Positions 11,301 to 18,266 of a stretch of 33,028 bases of DNA are shown here, piece by piece. Made by a program: the position numbers and the translations under genes. The stretch covers positions 1 through 33,028 of the forward strand of contig JAPOGE010000017.1 of assembly GCA_028283345.1 (NCBI GenBank). The letters are read 5' to 3'. The notes below the pieces were generated by a model. It was not told the origin of the DNA. It was given only the letters and a program-made list of their open reading frames with translations, and ran no database searches. The first letter of the stretch is position 1, and each line of letters opens with the position of its first letter. Source of the DNA: Candidatus Poseidoniales archaeon (GTDB lineage Archaea; Thermoplasmatota; Poseidoniia; Poseidoniales; Poseidoniaceae).

Positions 11301-14300
11301 TGGGTTACCATAATTATTCTCAGGCGTACGATGGTTTTGCCCGCTTGGGTCTCATCACCGAATCAACTACAATCACCACGATTTCACGTGGGTCATGGAG
11401 CACTCAGGTTGTCGGCTCAAACGACAATGTGGTCGTCCCCTTGCTCGATATCATCCCGGGCCAGCCGACCATCCTCCAGTTCGCCGTAAGTGCTGATACC
11501 AGCATCACCCTGTACGACAAGGCGGTACCTTTCAACCACCTTTTCACGATTCCATTGTCGGCAGATTTCCTCGCCAATATTTCTGCTGGTCTATCTGTCA
11601 ACCAAAGCACTGGAGAGTTCATCGTACCGGTTGACCTGAGGACCGAGAGCGGCGGTTTCATCGTCGGCGGAATGATTGAATGGCAGCGACTATTCACCGA
11701 TGTTTTCTATATTCCTCCTCCCTCAACCATCTATCCCGATGGCAGTTCGTTCACGATTGAGACCTACAGTTTGCACAATTTTGAGGGGGTGATTGACACC
11801 GTCCGCCTGAGCATCGGTACAAGCCGCGACCTCGATACAGCCGAGGTGGTATTTGTGGCGAGAAACACCTCCACTCCTCAGGCAACCCTCGAAGTTGAGC
11901 GCGGGGCGGAATTGATGTCACTCGATACCGCTGATTGGAATGCCGGGTTCACTGAAAATATCCGCCGAATATATTGGCGAATCACCCCGTCGCGGGACTG
12001 GGGTGACCAAGCACGGTTGTGGTGGATGCTGGAGTCCTCCAATGATGATTCCTCACCGCTCGGGCCGACCGTGGTCAGCACCGGTGGCTCAGCCGGCCCA
12101 GCCCTCGAGGTCGACCTTGAGGTGACCGACCTGGTCGTAGCCGACCAGTTCGGTAACGATATCGCCGATGAATCAAATTCCCTCTACCCGTGGTCATTGC
12201 AGGCCGATAGCAATATTTCGCTCAGCGGCTTCGTCCGCTTCCAAGGCTCACCCGATATCGCCGCTCCCGATGAGATGTTCACCCTCAACCTGTCATTGCA
12301 GGATGGGCAAGATGGAATGGGAGGTGTGGCAACCTATGTTGAGGTCGCGACCACAGATGGGCATTGGTCGGCCAATTTGACCATTCCCAGCGGAGAGGAT
12401 ATCTCAAGTGGAAGTGAGATGAAGGTCGTGACTTCTCTCGAGTTTTCAGCCGCCGAGTCGGCTAACGGGGTCAGCGATGAGACCCCGGAGGCCAAGTATC
12501 CCCGATTCATCTTTGATTCCCAAGGTCCGACTCTGGGAACCCTGTACACCATCCCTCCGGGAATGCGCCAGCCCGCCGATGGCCATGTGTGGTATGAGGG
12601 CAATCTGTTGGCTCTCTCCATCGAGGTTGGCGACGATGTCCGCCAAGGTGAGACTCTCAACCTGCACTATTGGGTCGAAGGGGTCGATGATGCCAACATG
12701 GACGGCAATGCACAAGGCGAAGAATACCGTGTGCTGAGCGAACAATTATCGCTGAACTCACTCAACCAGATTGTTGATTTCCCCTTGATTGATGTCTCGG
12801 CGGCAATTCCCGAAGGCACCTCTTGGGGTGAAGTGAGCCTGTGGCTGGATGGCGATGACCTCGCCGGAAATCCACTCATAAGTGGCGGTGCGCCCGGACT
12901 GGGGGTCGGCTCAGGTGCTGGTGTGGGGGTTGGAGGTGGAGATTTGGCGACGGTCAGGATAACCCGGGATTCGGTGGCGGAAATCGCCAGCGGCTCACTC
13001 GCTTTCGACCTCGTCAACGGGCAATTGCTGGGCGGCCATGAGCATACCTTCAGCGTCATTCTCGAAGAGGAGGATGGTTTGGTCAGTCTCGACAAATTGG
13101 TTCTCGATATCACCGGTGACCACGATGGGGAAGACTGTGCCATCATCTGGTATCCGTGGTCGGGAGTGATCGATTATTCACTCGAGTGTTTTGTCGACGG
13201 CAGTGTCAGCGTCGGATATGAGGAGATATCTGTCGGTCGTTGGCAGATTGAAATTAGTTTCATACTTCCCTGGCTCAACAGCAGTGCCTTCGGCCCGTCA
13301 GCATCGATACCTTCCTTCGCGGTGTTCGACCTCGGTCAAGACCTCGGGTTGGGATATGGGGCGATGACTCCATTTGCTTGGCAATACAATGGCGACGCCG
13401 AAATAGTAGTGGTCGAGATGAATGACCTGAGCGCGCCATTCGGGCGGCTAGTCGGCGATACATTCTACATCAGCAGTGATGATCTGATTACTGTGGGAGT
13501 GCTGGTCGTCAACACCGGTACCGACCTGCCCCTGGACCTCGAATACGGTTTTCAGATACGGGCTGCCGGGGGGATAAACCAGTCGACGGCAACCGGATTG
13601 TATGCCGGTGATGGTGAGTTGGGCTATGCGGCGATGGAATTGTACTACGATGATTTTCCGAATTTGGCCGCGACCCTGCACGTCGAGCCGCTGGCGCTGG
13701 GAAATAACACCCCACAAATATTCCACACCACCGGTGAATCATATTCGGTCGTCTTCGACAATTATGCCCCGCGCCTGGTCATCCCACCAAATCTGTACAG
13801 CGTGCATGTCGAGCGAATGGATTACCTCCCGGTGACCTTCGATATCGCCGAAGCAAATCAGATGAATCCCGAATCGGTCGTAGTTCACTTTGCCTTCATC
13901 AACGCCGATGGCCAGACCAGATATGCCGGCTCAGAGCAGGCCGAGTTGGCTTCACACAGTGGTGGTGATTGGAATTATCAGGCCATCTTGAATCTCACTC
14001 CGCCTTCCTCACAACCCGGAGTTGGGGGTGGGTTGGGGAATACTCCCCTCAATACCGACACGCTTCGTCTGTGGGTGGTAGGTGCCGACTATGCTGGTAA
14101 TCTCCTGAAGGGTGGTGGCACTGAGGAATCACCGATGTATCCAGCCTTCATCGCCCCCACTTTCACTCTCTTCCTGGAGCCCTTGGCTCAAATTGATGAT
14201 GAGGTGGAGATCGGTCATGCCATCGTGGTGCTTTCATCAATCAGCAATCTTGGGGATGGCCGTGGAAATGCTACCCTCACCCTATACATCAATGGGGTGC

Positions 14301-14620
14301 TGGTCGATTCTACCACGGTTGAATTATTACCTGAGGGAGTGGCTGAATTCCGCTTGGAATATCTCCCCGAGGCTCTCGGTCAACACCAGGTCATGGTAGT
14401 GCTTAATCAGACCGGACAGAGTGAGAACTTCAGTATCGAGGTGGTGGCATCCACACCGGTGAGTGATTCCTTCAGCGCCGCCTCGGCGGCCGGCGCCGGC
14501 CTGGCGATGTTGTTCATCTTCGCCGCAATAATCATCATCGTCCGCGGCCGGAATTCGCTGCACGGGGAATATGATGAGGACAAGGAGTTTGACGATTACG
14601 AGGATTTTGAGCAGGAGTAA
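8306..14620 (+). CDS. Giant multidomain secreted surface protein with C-terminal TM anchor and acidic cytoplasmic tail
   Basis: ~2100 aa. Signal-like segment RQKHLAALLTLMMILTPAMPLVGG; several MAM/lectin-like segments ending in GPGWFIDNLTLE, INGWEGVMVDDVILH, GAGWYIDNVGVEV; Ig-like segments with D(L/Y)AGN; CARDB-like C-terminal domain; TM GAGLAMLFIFAAIIIIVRGR and tail GEYDEDKEFDDYEDFEQE. Start could be 8306 or an internal GTG at 8408. Confidence 0.88.
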   Translation: MNAHMVSPSESRFTIDGLGGLLISSATTEQCEGAVVVRQKHLAALLTLMMILTPAMPLVGGESTPWEGQTHPRPANPGGAVEISTTGFTLPTNGTITAGWLNLSTDWDQPGGNGTGWSAGGKSNFTSGQDLLTTSLRFEGALSLAQDQSVGSYEDFTTLETTFLDWLPAGPDSLLWSPSDLNLSGTNVTVGDDTGLFNSSWGGTIPAFSTEGGMVVSTLGYSLSRVPAGAHAWLEGPQVRLPNVIRNYSAQFDYWIHLDEGGGWMEYSLDGGQWKVLNPEGGYPDDLPTASPQLTGFANASASGWKKATFALDGLNGIHSAEHLRLRFVIWTDANAITTGPGWFIDNLTLENEGEPLACWFHGNLNGAYANDADAWIVFNFSTTNLTVPMEITASLDWDLEGGWNDNLFVEASNDNQTWYEISLPPGIPGIGLIVNGIAYADETGGWVDITMPLPTIFQNQSKVWLRFRVETDYSLGYGASINGWEGVMVDDVILHANSSAGKVNILLDNFSTNDSVEIGVAAGANEQWQYLTDYGHNGNSTVIYGFESTIEFARGWHLNHERGSPWEIGTTNNGSGWGPGSFPNNGNGAGLVLNGKYAANTLTHLETKDWSIPVNASARLVFDNWVCTEANWDGGTIFISDDAGLSWAPFAQQEPDFYDTRSTVNPFSPLYNLMIFDGSSNSAGCNVQPWVTKQGNLSAWSGQNVRFRFTFFSDTYLEGAGWYIDNVGVEVDWFEPSGKWLSPPIKVGPSGYGSAAIGGQIPSETSVSATVLDSSGTPIIGYAGRDLPLDLRGIRPDQHPTIHLRLHLATTDALRTPVLQNLHVGANLYLTVPVLDSSGWESSATLPVLWDSDSGAYVSANSSGKMTAGISIHRPARSISIWCDCENVYLSLNPQASPSTAYLAILIQQPTSSLVNGLYLRDIQDLKITIDLLQNGWVKDLRVEVEYNDIAVNPAVDLKGDGSDEWAHSGPFGIATDVNGINNLQFYAIYGVTYSKNLGYHNYSQAYDGFARLGLITESTTITTISRGSWSTQVVGSNDNVVVPLLDIIPGQPTILQFAVSADTSITLYDKAVPFNHLFTIPLSADFLANISAGLSVNQSTGEFIVPVDLRTESGGFIVGGMIEWQRLFTDVFYIPPPSTIYPDGSSFTIETYSLHNFEGVIDTVRLSIGTSRDLDTAEVVFVARNTSTPQATLEVERGAELMSLDTADWNAGFTENIRRIYWRITPSRDWGDQARLWWMLESSNDDSSPLGPTVVSTGGSAGPALEVDLEVTDLVVADQFGNDIADESNSLYPWSLQADSNISLSGFVRFQGSPDIAAPDEMFTLNLSLQDGQDGMGGVATYVEVATTDGHWSANLTIPSGEDISSGSEMKVVTSLEFSAAESANGVSDETPEAKYPRFIFDSQGPTLGTLYTIPPGMRQPADGHVWYEGNLLALSIEVGDDVRQGETLNLHYWVEGVDDANMDGNAQGEEYRVLSEQLSLNSLNQIVDFPLIDVSAAIPEGTSWGEVSLWLDGDDLAGNPLISGGAPGLGVGSGAGVGVGGGDLATVRITRDSVAEIASGSLAFDLVNGQLLGGHEHTFSVILEEEDGLVSLDKLVLDITGDHDGEDCAIIWYPWSGVIDYSLECFVDGSVSVGYEEISVGRWQIEISFILPWLNSSAFGPSASIPSFAVFDLGQDLGLGYGAMTPFAWQYNGDAEIVVVEMNDLSAPFGRLVGDTFYISSDDLITVGVLVVNTGTDLPLDLEYGFQIRAAGGINQSTATGLYAGDGELGYAAMELYYDDFPNLAATLHVEPLALGNNTPQIFHTTGESYSVVFDNYAPRLVIPPNLYSVHVERMDYLPVTFDIAEANQMNPESVVVHFAFINADGQTRYAGSEQAELASHSGGDWNYQAILNLTPPSSQPGVGGGLGNTPLNTDTLRLWVVGADYAGNLLKGGGTEESPMYPAFIAPTFTLFLEPLAQIDDEVEIGHAIVVLSSISNLGDGRGNATLTLYINGVLVDSTTVELLPEGVAEFRLEYLPEALGQHQVMVVLNQTGQSENFSIEVVASTPVSDSFSAASAAGAGLAMLFIFAAIIIIVRGRNSLHGEYDEDKEFDDYEDFEQE

Positions 14621-14653
14621 GTATCAAACATACCGGGGGCCACGCCCGCTTAC

Positions 14654-14738
14654 GCAGGGGTTCCCGAGCGGTCAAAGGGGGCGGGCTCAAGATCCGCTGT
14701 CAAGGACTTCGCAGGTTCGAATCCTGCCCCCTGCACCA
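14654..14738 (+). tRNA. tRNA-Leu(CAA), CCA encoded
   Basis: Acceptor GCAGGGG/CCCCTGC, anticodon arm GCGGG-CTCAAGA-TCCGC (anticodon CAA), extended variable region, T arm GCAGG-TTCGAAT-CCTGC, ending ACCA. Confidence 0.93.
14715..14738 (+). repeat. att-like direct repeat, left copy (within tRNA-Leu 3' end)
   Basis: gttcgaatcctgccccctgcacca, identical 24 bp to 17179-17202. Confidence 0.9.
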
Positions 14739-14845
14739 TAGTCAAAAAAGCCCTATCAAAAGCATGCTATGAGTAGGGAAAAACGAGCAGGGCTGGAAGG
14801 ATTCTCAAAATATAATAACATTTTTATTTCGGTTTGAAAGTAGGG

Positions 14846-15550
14846 CTATTCCTCGCTTGAATCAATAGGGTTATTTAGGCTGGGATGATATATCTTCTTC
14901 CTGTACGTAATACCAAACTTTGTCCATACATCTCGCCATTCTCCTTCTTCGGTATTATCCACTAGAGATTCTCGTTCTTTCTCTGTAGGTAGGTACAACT
15001 TATCGTGTAACCAAATAGATACAATGTAAACAGCTAACGCGGCAATAAATCCATATAAATCACCGACCCACTCTGCAACGATGATCCAGATAGAAACAGT
15101 GGTCATAATCATACATGCAGAGAATAATATTTCGTCCACTGTTAACTTTTCTTCCTTCTGTCTATCTTTTCTAGCCATGTATATGGTGCCAAAATAGCCG
15201 GACTGTTCTGCGTATTCTTCAGTTCCATGTACCTTGACTTTTCGCCTCCTCAACACGTCCTGAAATCCTGAGATACAAATGTAGAATAGGAAAGCAGTCC
15301 AGGCGAAATAAGTATAAAATGGAGAATCTAGATAATCTAATATTACCCAAATCACAAATGAAATTGCGATGTAGCCAGCTGTCACATTTTCCTCCCATTC
15401 AGTCTCTTGAAACACCGTGGTCATATTTTTTCCGAGCTTACTTAGGGCAACATCCCTATTGTCCCAGAGAGGTATGCCGAGTATAATTATACTGAAAAGA
15501 ACTATGAAAATAGATGATGATGGAAATAACTCAAGTTGTTTCACCAACAA
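14846..15550 (-). CDS. Orphan multi-TM membrane protein
   Basis: 234 aa with several hydrophobic helices (IFIVLFSIIILGIPLW; IAISFVIWVILDYL; FAWTAFLFYICISG; ILFSACMIMTTVSIWIIVAEWV; FIAALAVYIVSIWL); AT-rich codons; no family recognised. Confidence 0.7.
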   Translation of the reverse strand: MLVKQLELFPSSSIFIVLFSIIILGIPLWDNRDVALSKLGKNMTTVFQETEWEENVTAGYIAISFVIWVILDYLDSPFYTYFAWTAFLFYICISGFQDVLRRRKVKVHGTEEYAEQSGYFGTIYMARKDRQKEEKLTVDEILFSACMIMTTVSIWIIVAEWVGDLYGFIAALAVYIVSIWLHDKLYLPTEKERESLVDNTEEGEWRDVWTKFGITYRKKIYHPSLNNPIDSSEE

Positions 15551-15789
15551 TATCTCATAAATAACTAGTGCAAGCCAAATGAATAGGACCTAATATGCCA
15601 ACGGCTGGCGTGAATAGAAATAATTTCGAATACCCCTCCACATCTACTTCGCCGAAGATATGGTAGCACATTAGATTCACGTCTATTGTGTTGTAATAAT
15701 ACGGTAAATCCCGCCTTGAGGTCGGCTTCAGGTGGTTGTAGGGTCGCCATTGGTTAGCCTAATGGTCTAAATACCGCTACAGAAGCACC

Positions 15790-17103
15790 ATGCGACGCTA
15801 TAGCACATGCATATTGATGAGCCTGCTTATGATTACCACCACCCTTGCCGGTTGCTTCGGTGGTGATGAGGAACCAGCCCCCGATGAGGGTGATGATACA
15901 CCTGAACCAACACCCACTCTAGACGACTGGGATGTGTACTATGTCACCACCAGTGACGACCTGCCAAATTGTGATGGCGATACGCTCGGCCGCCTCTATT
16001 ATGTCATAGCAGATGCTGCATTCCAAGCCTGCACTGACACGGATTGGATAACCGTTGACCTGACTGGGCCGATGGGTCCAGCGGGTGCTGATGGTGTGAA
16101 TGGAACCAATGGAACCAATGGAACCAATGGAACCAATGGAACCAATGGAACCAATGGAACCAATGGAACCGGTGGTGCGGACGGGGTCGATGGAGCGGAT
16201 GGTGCTGACGGTGCTCAAGGCGAACAGGGACCTCCCGGAGCAAACGGAACCGACGGACAGGACGGACAGGACGGAGCCAACGGAATGGACGGCCAGAATG
16301 GTGCTGACGGCAGTGCCTCGCCCAACACGATGCTCACCCGCGTGTCCGCTTCGCCAGTCTCGCTGGGATGCATCTCAGGAGGCCGCGTCATAGAACAAGG
16401 ACTCGACAACGGCGACGGAGGTGGAACTGCACAGAACGGAATCCTCGAGATAGGCGAGGTCGACTACACCACCACATACTGCAGCCGCCTCCTAGATGAA
16501 GCAGAGTTGGTTAATGACCTCTTCATCGGCACCGCCGGCGGGGGTGCCGCCAGCATCACAGTCATGGGAACCCGGCTCTACTTTTCTGCGAATGACGGCA
16601 TCAGCGGCCAAGAACTGTGGGCATACGAGACCACCAACGACTCGACCTGGTTGGTGTCCGACACCTACAGCGGCAGCGGCGGCGGATTTCCAGAATACAT
16701 CACGGTCATGGGGACTAGGCTCTACTTTTCTGCGAATGACGGCATCAGCGGGTACGAACTGTGGGCGCACGAGACGACCAACTCCTCGACCTGGCAGGTG
16801 GCCGACATCCAAAGCGGCAGCGGCAGTGGGTATGCGGATTACATCACGGTCATGGGCACGCGTCTCTACTTCGTGGCGACCTGCACATCTACGCCATTCA
16901 ACCAGTGCTCCCACGAACTGTGGGCGCACGACACCACTACCGGGGTAACCCAGCAGATGGCCAACATCTGTTATGATTGCAACGGGTTTCCGCAGCATCT
17001 CACACCCATGGGAAACCGGCTCTACTTCGAGGCGGGTGACTACAGCAGCGGCCGAGAACTGTGGGTGTACGGAATTATTGAGCACACCACCACCTACAAT
17101 TGA
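15790..17103 (+). CDS. Modular lipoprotein: DLPNC/FQAC module, collagen-like (Gly-X-Y) stalk, Cys-containing hinge, ELW-repeat head
   Basis: Lipobox TLAGC; YYVTTSDDLPNCDGDTLGRLYYVIADAAFQACTDTDW; GPMGPAGADGVNGTNGT...GQDGQDGANGMDGQNGADG; VSLGCISGGRVIEQGLDNGDGGGTAQNGILEIGEVDYTTTYCS; four GTRLYF.ANDGISG.ELWA-type repeats. Confidence 0.88.
   Translation: MRRYSTCILMSLLMITTTLAGCFGGDEEPAPDEGDDTPEPTPTLDDWDVYYVTTSDDLPNCDGDTLGRLYYVIADAAFQACTDTDWITVDLTGPMGPAGADGVNGTNGTNGTNGTNGTNGTNGTNGTGGADGVDGADGADGAQGEQGPPGANGTDGQDGQDGANGMDGQNGADGSASPNTMLTRVSASPVSLGCISGGRVIEQGLDNGDGGGTAQNGILEIGEVDYTTTYCSRLLDEAELVNDLFIGTAGGGAASITVMGTRLYFSANDGISGQELWAYETTNDSTWLVSDTYSGSGGGFPEYITVMGTRLYFSANDGISGYELWAHETTNSSTWQVADIQSGSGSGYADYITVMGTRLYFVATCTSTPFNQCSHELWAHDTTTGVTQQMANICYDCNGFPQHLTPMGNRLYFEAGDYSSGRELWVYGIIEHTTTYN
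16099..16170 (+). repeat. Perfect 9-bp tandem repeat (aatggaacc) x 8
   Basis: Eight consecutive aatggaacc units encoding (NGT)8 inside the collagen-like region. Confidence 0.95.
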
Positions 17104-17178
17104 TTCATTGCACGCGGAACCGAGTTCGAAGCATCCAAAGGTCGCTAAAAGTAGGGCTTTCCAGAATAAAAAATAACA

Positions 17179-17202
17179 GTTCGAATCCTGCCCCCTGCAC
17201 CA
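17179..17202 (+). repeat. att-like direct repeat, right copy (tRNA-Leu 3' fragment)
   Basis: gttcgaatcctgccccctgcacca; not preceded by the rest of a tRNA. Confidence 0.9.
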
Positions 17203-17350
17203 ATTTGCTCGACGATGAATCGAGTTTGGAACCAAGGTTGGCTGTGTTTCGAAAAACAATCGGTACAGTAAATTTTTCGGGCGCCCTAAAAATGACTGAA
17301 AATTATTCCCAAATTATCTATCACTGTCCCGCAGTGTCACCTTTAACAAT

Positions 17351-17378
17351 GGTTTAGGGCAACCTAAACCTTATATGG
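17351..17378 (+). promoter_or_regulatory. DtxR-like palindrome immediately upstream of a TATA-like element, FTR1 promoter
   Basis: ggtttagg-gcaa-cctaaacc (17351-17370, perfect 8-bp arms) followed by ttatat (17371-17376), about 26 bp before ATG 17400. Confidence 0.6.
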
Positions 17379-17399
17379 AAATCCACCGCCGCCGGCCTT

Positions 17400-18266
17400 A
17401 TGCTGGCAGATGTGTGGGCAGGTGGATTGATTGGCTTCAGAGAAGCGATGGAAGCGACAATCATCGTTGTGGTTTTCATATTGATTCTCAAAAAATCCGG
17501 ACGCCCGGAAATGATGAAAAATATCTGGAAGGGAGTTGGGGCCGGTGTCGTCGCCAGCATCATCACCGCGATATTGTTCAAATTGGTAATCGGCAGTTTT
17601 GAAGACAATGAGGCTTGGTTTGAAGGAGTGTTGATGCTCGCTTCTGCAGCCCTGATTGCAGTCGTGGTCTTTCATTTGATCAAGCACCATTCGAAGGAAG
17701 AGTTGGAAAGAATTGCCGAGGGTGCAATCTCGGACCAGGAAAAGGGTGCAAAGGCACTCTCGGTCATCGCCTTCTTATCGGTATGGCGTGAAGGTTCGGA
17801 AACCGTGCTCTTCATGTCCGCGGGCACTGAGACCTCTTGGGCGATTTTCGGGTTGGTAATAGGTATCTCTGCCGCAGTACTGCTGGGTTGGCTGATGCTT
17901 TCCAAGGGGGTGCGAATAGACATCAAGAGATTATTCACCATCACAACCGTACTGCTCATCTTCGTCGGTGCCGGACTGGCCGCACATGGAGTCCATGAAC
18001 TACAGGAGGGCGAAGTCGGACTGATACCGGTCTATGATGACGAGTTCTGGAATGTCAATCCACAGTGGGACGGCACAGGAGAGGCTCCGATTCTGCACGA
18101 CAAGGGATTGGTCGGTGGAACCCTGCGGGCGATGCTGGGGTGGAATGGTAACCCGACAATGTTGGAATTCTTCACCTGGGCCGGATATCTGACGGTGATG
18201 GGTATTCTCTACAAGCGAGACACTGAATCTCATACTCCAGCCGAGGAACCCGAGCCCCTGCTGTGA
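17400..18266 (+). CDS. FTR1-family iron permease
   Basis: Two REGxE-type motifs (GFREAMEATIIVVV and VWREGSETVLFMSAG) in a polytopic membrane protein. Confidence 0.88.
   Translation: MLADVWAGGLIGFREAMEATIIVVVFILILKKSGRPEMMKNIWKGVGAGVVASIITAILFKLVIGSFEDNEAWFEGVLMLASAALIAVVVFHLIKHHSKEELERIAEGAISDQEKGAKALSVIAFLSVWREGSETVLFMSAGTETSWAIFGLVIGISAAVLLGWLMLSKGVRIDIKRLFTITTVLLIFVGAGLAAHGVHELQEGEVGLIPVYDDEFWNVNPQWDGTGEAPILHDKGLVGGTLRAMLGWNGNPTMLEFFTWAGYLTVMGILYKRDTESHTPAEEPEPLL

Follow-up and report, generated by a model that had tools for sequence, protein, structure and literature searches.

How does a segment of DNA that carries no recombinase come to lie at the 3' end of a tRNA gene, bounded by copies of the end of that gene? 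The question is raised by a stretch of 33,028 nucleotides from a Candidatus Poseidoniales archaeon (hereafter the window), which is contig 88 of a genome of 2,135,886 bases in 201 contigs, estimated to be 91% complete (G000). All the data used here are sequences of metagenome assemblies. The window contains an intact tRNA-Leu(CAA) gene with an encoded CCA (14654-14738, plus strand; ARAGORN and Rfam RF00005). Its final 24 nucleotides (GTTCGAATCCTGCCCCCTGCACCA; 14715-14738, plus strand), which span the T-loop, the 3' T-stem, the acceptor strand and the CCA, are found again with 100% identity at 17179-17202 on the same strand, at a start-to-start distance of 2464. We refer to these two copies as the attL-side and attR-side cores. 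The length of the repeat is exactly 24, with different neighbouring bases at the two copies, and no other exact copy exists in the whole genome. The next-best matches are the ends of tRNA-Leu(GAG) and tRNA-Leu(TAG), with 2 and 3 mismatches respectively, and a reversed control pattern of the 24-mer gave 0 matches in the same genome. When the 38 tRNA genes of this genome were compared with their surroundings, exact copies of at least 13 nt of a gene's own 3' end appeared 6 times in the ca. 220 kb downstream and 0 times upstream (up to 12 kb for each gene), and because of this imbalance a chance origin of the 24-bp repeat can be excluded. For the other genomes of the family, no contig had a second tRNA-Leu 24-mer among the matches listed.

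The comparison with close relatives consisted of one genome, Euryarchaeota archaeon UBA60 (Candidatus Poseidoniales; G001), the sole other genome of the genus examined. Its contig DARQ01000095.1 (locus L020) has the same gene order as the flanks of the window, i.e., a giant surface protein, tRNA-Leu(CAA) and then directly the downstream flank with a FTR1 permease gene. At the left junction, positions 13378-14736 of the window align with 12396-13754 of this locus (85.7% identity), and at the right junction 17179-18016 align with 13733-14570 (91.9% identity). The two flanks are therefore joined directly in the sister species, where a single core is present and the two alignments overlap by 22 bases, and nothing in the locus is a counterpart of the interval except the tRNA end itself. 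In the window, the attR-side core is the displaced 3' end of tRNA-Leu(CAA), followed by GCTCGACGATG as in the sister species, and the flank after this distal copy (GCTCGACGATGAATCGAG) is the native one. Since the flanks are joined around a single core in one genome and separated by the interval with a second core copy in the other, we conclude that 2,464 bp were inserted precisely at the 3' end of the tRNA; the inserted segment proper (14739-17178) adds this length to the empty site together with one core copy. To judge from the two sequences, this insertion is in all probability the footprint of tRNA-directed site-specific recombination. The first-pass annotation of this DNA had claimed a perfect direct copy of the tRNA-Leu(CAA) end 2464 bp downstream, which ARAGORN and the repeat comparison confirm to the base, and had read it as the attL/attR footprint of tRNA-targeted recombination, proposing that an empty site be sought in a related genome. 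Such a site is present in the sister species, clean and with one copy of the repeat, and lends support to that reading.

A repeat of this kind might also arise by homologous recombination or slippage with another copy of tRNA-Leu, or by an error of assembly. The source is, after all, a fragmented metagenome assembly of 201 contigs in which paralogues of one of the genes of the interval (the lipoprotein described below) are often found at contig ends. However, both junctions lie within one 33-kb contig, the native flank comes after the distal copy, and this copy is exactly the T-loop-to-CCA stretch of this isoacceptor, from which the other tRNA-Leu ends differ at 2-3 positions. We regard such an origin as very improbable.

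Two sizeable ORFs were found in the interval. The first (14846-15550, minus strand) is AT-rich and encodes a hydrophobic, putatively multi-pass membrane protein of 234 aa, with several likely transmembrane segments as judged by eye. It is an orphan in the collections searched, with no significant family match in Pfam, PHROGs or NCBIfam, no significant match in the PDB, and no relative in viral contigs, GTDB genomes, phage records or any other of the 170 genomes of the family (one genome per species in these scans). The left kilobase of the interval has a GC content of 38-41%, against ca. 55% in the surroundings, and the half containing the second ORF has a host-like 58%. This second ORF (15790-17103, plus strand) encodes a lipoprotein of 437 aa with a signal peptide, a lipobox (LAGC), a collagen-like Gly-Xaa-Xaa stretch and ELWxxDGT repeats (Pfam Collagen, 1e-12; NCBIfam ELWxxDGT_rpt, 6e-36). 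Its protein family gave 15 matches in the source genome and was represented in 154 of the 170 genomes, and the closest DNA relative of the gene among the genomes compared is a paralogue on contig 122, with 78% identity from just before the start codon onwards. No close relative was found in viral contigs. Its PHROG matches to tail fibres rest solely on the collagen-like stretch and were set aside. Paralogues of the gene lie at the ends of contigs 122, 25, 112, 150 and 160 of the source genome, and our results suggest that this repetitive lipoprotein family breaks the assembly. Going by composition and homology, the cargo pairs a membrane gene that is AT-rich and looks foreign with a surface lipoprotein whose family has been amplified in the host lineage.

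No recombinase was found in the interval, either among its ORFs or with Pfam, PHROGs and NCBIfam, and no integrase fragment came up among the ORFs or in a search that read through stops. This is in agreement with the contents described by the first-pass annotation (a surface lipoprotein and an orphan membrane protein, no recombinase). The outcome that it had set against its own interpretation, namely relatives that keep both genes and both repeats with ordinary composition, is not what we see: the membrane ORF is missing in the other family genomes searched and the left half of the island is AT-rich. It had also proposed that other tRNA 3' ends in the genome be searched for an integrase with the same att core; we found no non-Xer integrase and no further exact copy of the 24-mer in this genome. 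The sole PF00589 protein of the source genome (C115, 361 aa) has archaeal XerA as its best model, slightly under the cut-off; it is probably a XerA-like housekeeping enzyme, and it is the only tyrosine recombinase found in this genome. Across the family, PF00589 matches are almost all to one Xer-type protein per genome, which nearly all of these genomes possess, and the SSV-type archaeal integrase domain PF16795 is absent from the 170 genomes. In the sister species, a Xer-type recombinase (G001:C85:17930-18388) has a TAG stop inside the matched frame, which may be a sequencing error. One candidate helper, an integrase beside a tRNA-Leu on a contig of another genome (G146:C33, locus L157), was discarded as irrelevant because the contig is that of a T7-like phage binned into an archaeal MAG; it carries an RNA polymerase, a terminase-like protein, the integrase and the tRNA-Leu, and represents contamination of that MAG. 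We also discarded the idea that GTAGGGCT repeats near both ends of the island are arm-type integrase sites, the top 9-mer being no commoner than in shuffled sequences. Rfam gave only the tRNA above threshold in the island.

We think it highly likely that site-specific recombination brought a small integrative element (a genomic island) into the 3' end of tRNA-Leu(CAA). The T-arm/acceptor end of the tRNA would have served as attB, and the donor, circular or excised, would have carried the same 24-bp core as attP; recombination between the two would rebuild the tRNA, with the original 3' end displaced by 2464 bp to form a direct repeat downstream. The reaction was presumably performed by a tyrosine integrase supplied from outside the present segment, i.e., from a co-resident integrase-bearing element or from an integrase gene that has since been deleted. 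tRNA genes are common targets of archaeal integrases, and the sites used include those that run from the T stem-loop to the acceptor end; the T-loop with its flanking stem, the region inside the 24-bp repeat, is one of three tRNA-gene regions used by integrases (PMC8371274). Against this explanation, our searches found no integrase, integrase remnant, attP-bearing donor or proven arm-type site, and two further points count. One is that gain can be told from precise loss only by the orphan gene and the duplication of the tRNA end, as there is a single close relative, 86-92% identical at the junctions. The other is that an integrase could be missing from an assembly of 201 contigs and 91% completeness.

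There are two ways in which the island could have come to its present state. One would be that it arrived without an integrase, to which we give a little under an even chance; the other, which we hold to be possible to a slightly smaller degree, is that the integrase was lost later. In the latter case it would be the decayed remnant of a larger autonomous element, similar to a plasmid, a virus or Charybdis, that brought its own integrase to this site; internal deletion would then have removed the integrase and the backbone, so that two cargo genes remained between the att sites. Decay to an attL-cargo-attR structure is the usual route to a CIME (PMC5704250), elements of the Charybdis clade P, circular and integrase-bearing with ca. 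4.6 kb, do integrate beside tRNA genes of Poseidoniales (PMC12324425), and the left part of the island is AT-rich and foreign-looking. However, not even a fragment of an integrase was detected in the stop-tolerant and ORF searches, and as the junctions are perfect and the repeats identical, the insertion looks young. We consider this remnant a real possibility that falls short of being the probable one, and because the repeats are perfect and no fragment of an integrase was found, we lean slightly towards a unit moved in trans over a trimmed remnant. The integrase-bearing Charybdis elements beside Poseidoniales tRNA genes would be a plausible type of helper. A search of IMG/VR found no Charybdis-type helper with this att core and no exact match to the 24-bp core in its viral contigs, and no attP-bearing donor for the island was found.

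The island is not the only insertion at tRNA ends in this genome. Directly behind about one third of its tRNA genes, and about one half of those in G023, a genome of another genus, there are inserts of 70-180 bp, each of which repeats the 3' end of the tRNA that precedes it, in both inverted and direct orientation. In the source genome the inverted copy starts mostly at +18 to +31 (10 of 36 tRNAs at p<=0.01) and the direct copy lies at about +60 to +180 (11 of 36); the corresponding numbers for inverted and direct copies are 16 and 14 of 29 tRNAs in G023, 3 and 1 of 32 in the sister species, and 2 and 3 of 30 in G136, with ca. 0.3 per genome expected by chance. When the copies were compared with all tRNAs, the tRNA next to them was the best match in 10-15 of 29-36 cases (source genome and G023), against an expectation of 1. 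The loci concerned are L093, L096, L107, L108, L111, L113, L117, L118, L120, L121 and L123 in the source genome and L180, L186, L190, L196, L202, L205, L259, L262 and L263 in G023, where tandem units are found behind tRNA-Arg(TCG), Gly(GCC) and Leu(CAA). Insertions relative to the sister species, the one genome on which the count of proven cases rests, were identified at tRNA-Lys(CTT) (+117 bp), Cys (+131), Arg(TCG) (+71), Ala(GGC) (+70) and Thr(CGT) (+265). In the tRNA-Lys insert the duplicated stretch is ca. 38 bp, tRNA end plus trailer. At L121 (8078-8140 and 8238-8296) and L120 (minus strand), tRNA-Leu(TAG) and tRNA-Leu(TAA) have behind them, respectively, 24-bp perfect and 22-bp near-perfect inverted copies of the tRNA end, and the whole unit of tRNA end, spacer and inverted copy is then repeated; the tRNA-Leu(TAG) region folds far better than shuffles (z -15).

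Many of these small inserts hold a hairpin with a conserved loop (CTTCCCTCG...CTCAGTCCAG) and covarying stems (alignment A2; L279, L308, L280 and others). Changes on both sides of the stem were found in 10 of 12 pairs, and the covariation score was reached by 0 of 500 shuffles; as the alignment was built manually on the motif, this evidence is strong but not independent. The hairpin model derived for it (R1) has 33 copies in the source genome, 11 in G023, 8 in the sister species, and no more than 5 in any one of 26 further genomes. About one third of the copies in the source genome are located behind known tRNAs, and several others adjoin a tRNA-Glu-like 3' end without a full tRNA. At L309, L312, L313 and L315 (contigs 135, 16, 118 and 124) the hairpin lies away from annotated tRNAs, accompanied by a tRNA-Glu-like 3' end (CGGCACGAGC) and its inverted copy. 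It looks as if the hairpin unit may have moved together with the tRNA-Glu end. Rfam returned only the tRNA above threshold for the five loci with small elements that were searched, and we found no description of the inserts in the literature searched, which is not proof of novelty. Time and again these tRNA genes hold inserts fitted to their own 3' ends, and the inserts are polymorphic between the sister species; this points to an active, apparently undescribed tRNA-directed process, the enzyme of which could now be sought.

It is tempting to ask whether the machinery of the small hairpin elements also placed the island, as a gene-carrying version of them. Both are found in the same genome, at the same position of the tRNA 3' end and with the same type of direct own-tRNA copy, there are small insertions relative to the sister species at five other tRNA genes, and near its left end the island has a stretch (GCAGGGCTGGAAGGATTC; 14787-14804, minus strand; +49 to +66) that weakly matches the tRNA 3' end in inverted orientation. 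For this match the island's own tRNA-Leu(CAA) ranks first among all tRNAs, with p=0.004-0.01 against shuffles, uncorrected for the number of tRNAs, and it may be due to chance. However, it begins at +49, against about +18 to +27 in the small elements, the hairpin model has no match inside the interval, and the duplication of the island ends at the CCA, lacking the 20-bp trailer duplication, when well-resolved small elements also duplicate ca. 15-22 bp of trailer. A shared machinery thus appears unlikely to us. The broader idea, that some Poseidoniales carry undescribed small structured insertion elements (own-tRNA inverted and direct copies around a covarying hairpin, sometimes in tandem) behind many tRNA genes, with the island as a gene-carrying cassette moved by the same enzyme and tRNA genes anchoring the cassette system, we find equally doubtful as a whole. 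With no hairpin, no trailer duplication and only a weak inverted match, we have treated the island as a tRNA island of the ordinary sort, whose host genome has unusually busy tRNA ends. When 90 tRNA genes from three genomes were scanned for up to 12 kb downstream, or as far as the contig allowed, no other distant, kilobase-scale copy of a tRNA end was found.

What we have, then, is a minimal tRNA island in an abundant, uncultured group of marine archaea; its empty site is clean, and no recombinase is visible in it. It offers a compact system in which to ask how an element without its own enzyme can move a cargo of surface genes. No relative of the island or partner integrase was found in viral contigs, GTDB genomes or its own genome. 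Casposons, which are archaeal too, also lie next to the 3' ends of tRNA genes and show a target-site duplication, but they have Cas1, PolB and terminal inverted repeats, and no more than 4-7 nt of the tRNA fall within their target (PMC4046053); the ORFs of the island gave no match to Cas1 (casposase) or PolB in Pfam, PHROGs or NCBIfam. The Charybdis elements of clade P share the host order, the small size and, in several cases, the position beside tRNA genes. However, they have ca. 4.6 kb, ca. 10 genes and an integrase in all integrated forms (PMC12324425), and the island, with 2.46 kb, two sizeable ORFs and no integrase, is set apart from them by description. As in the Islander collection of tRNA-gene genomic islands, a regenerated tRNA and a displaced 3' fragment mark the ends, although those islands are attributed to a tyrosine integrase (PMC4383910) and ours has none and measures only 2.46 kb. 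CIMEs, cis-mobilizable elements that have kept attL and attR and lost the genes for integration and transfer, were defined from bacterial ICEs or IMEs that have decayed, and accretion has been shown for some of them (PMC5704250). The island likewise lacks a recombinase, its cargo is enclosed by two att copies at the 3' end of a tRNA, and it is CIME-like in its att sites and cargo. In its present form the segment would best be described, as far as its sequence tells, as a CIME-like, integrase-less mini-island, with att sites and cargo and no mobility gene. The kind of element is already known, and the island is a further case of tRNA islands.
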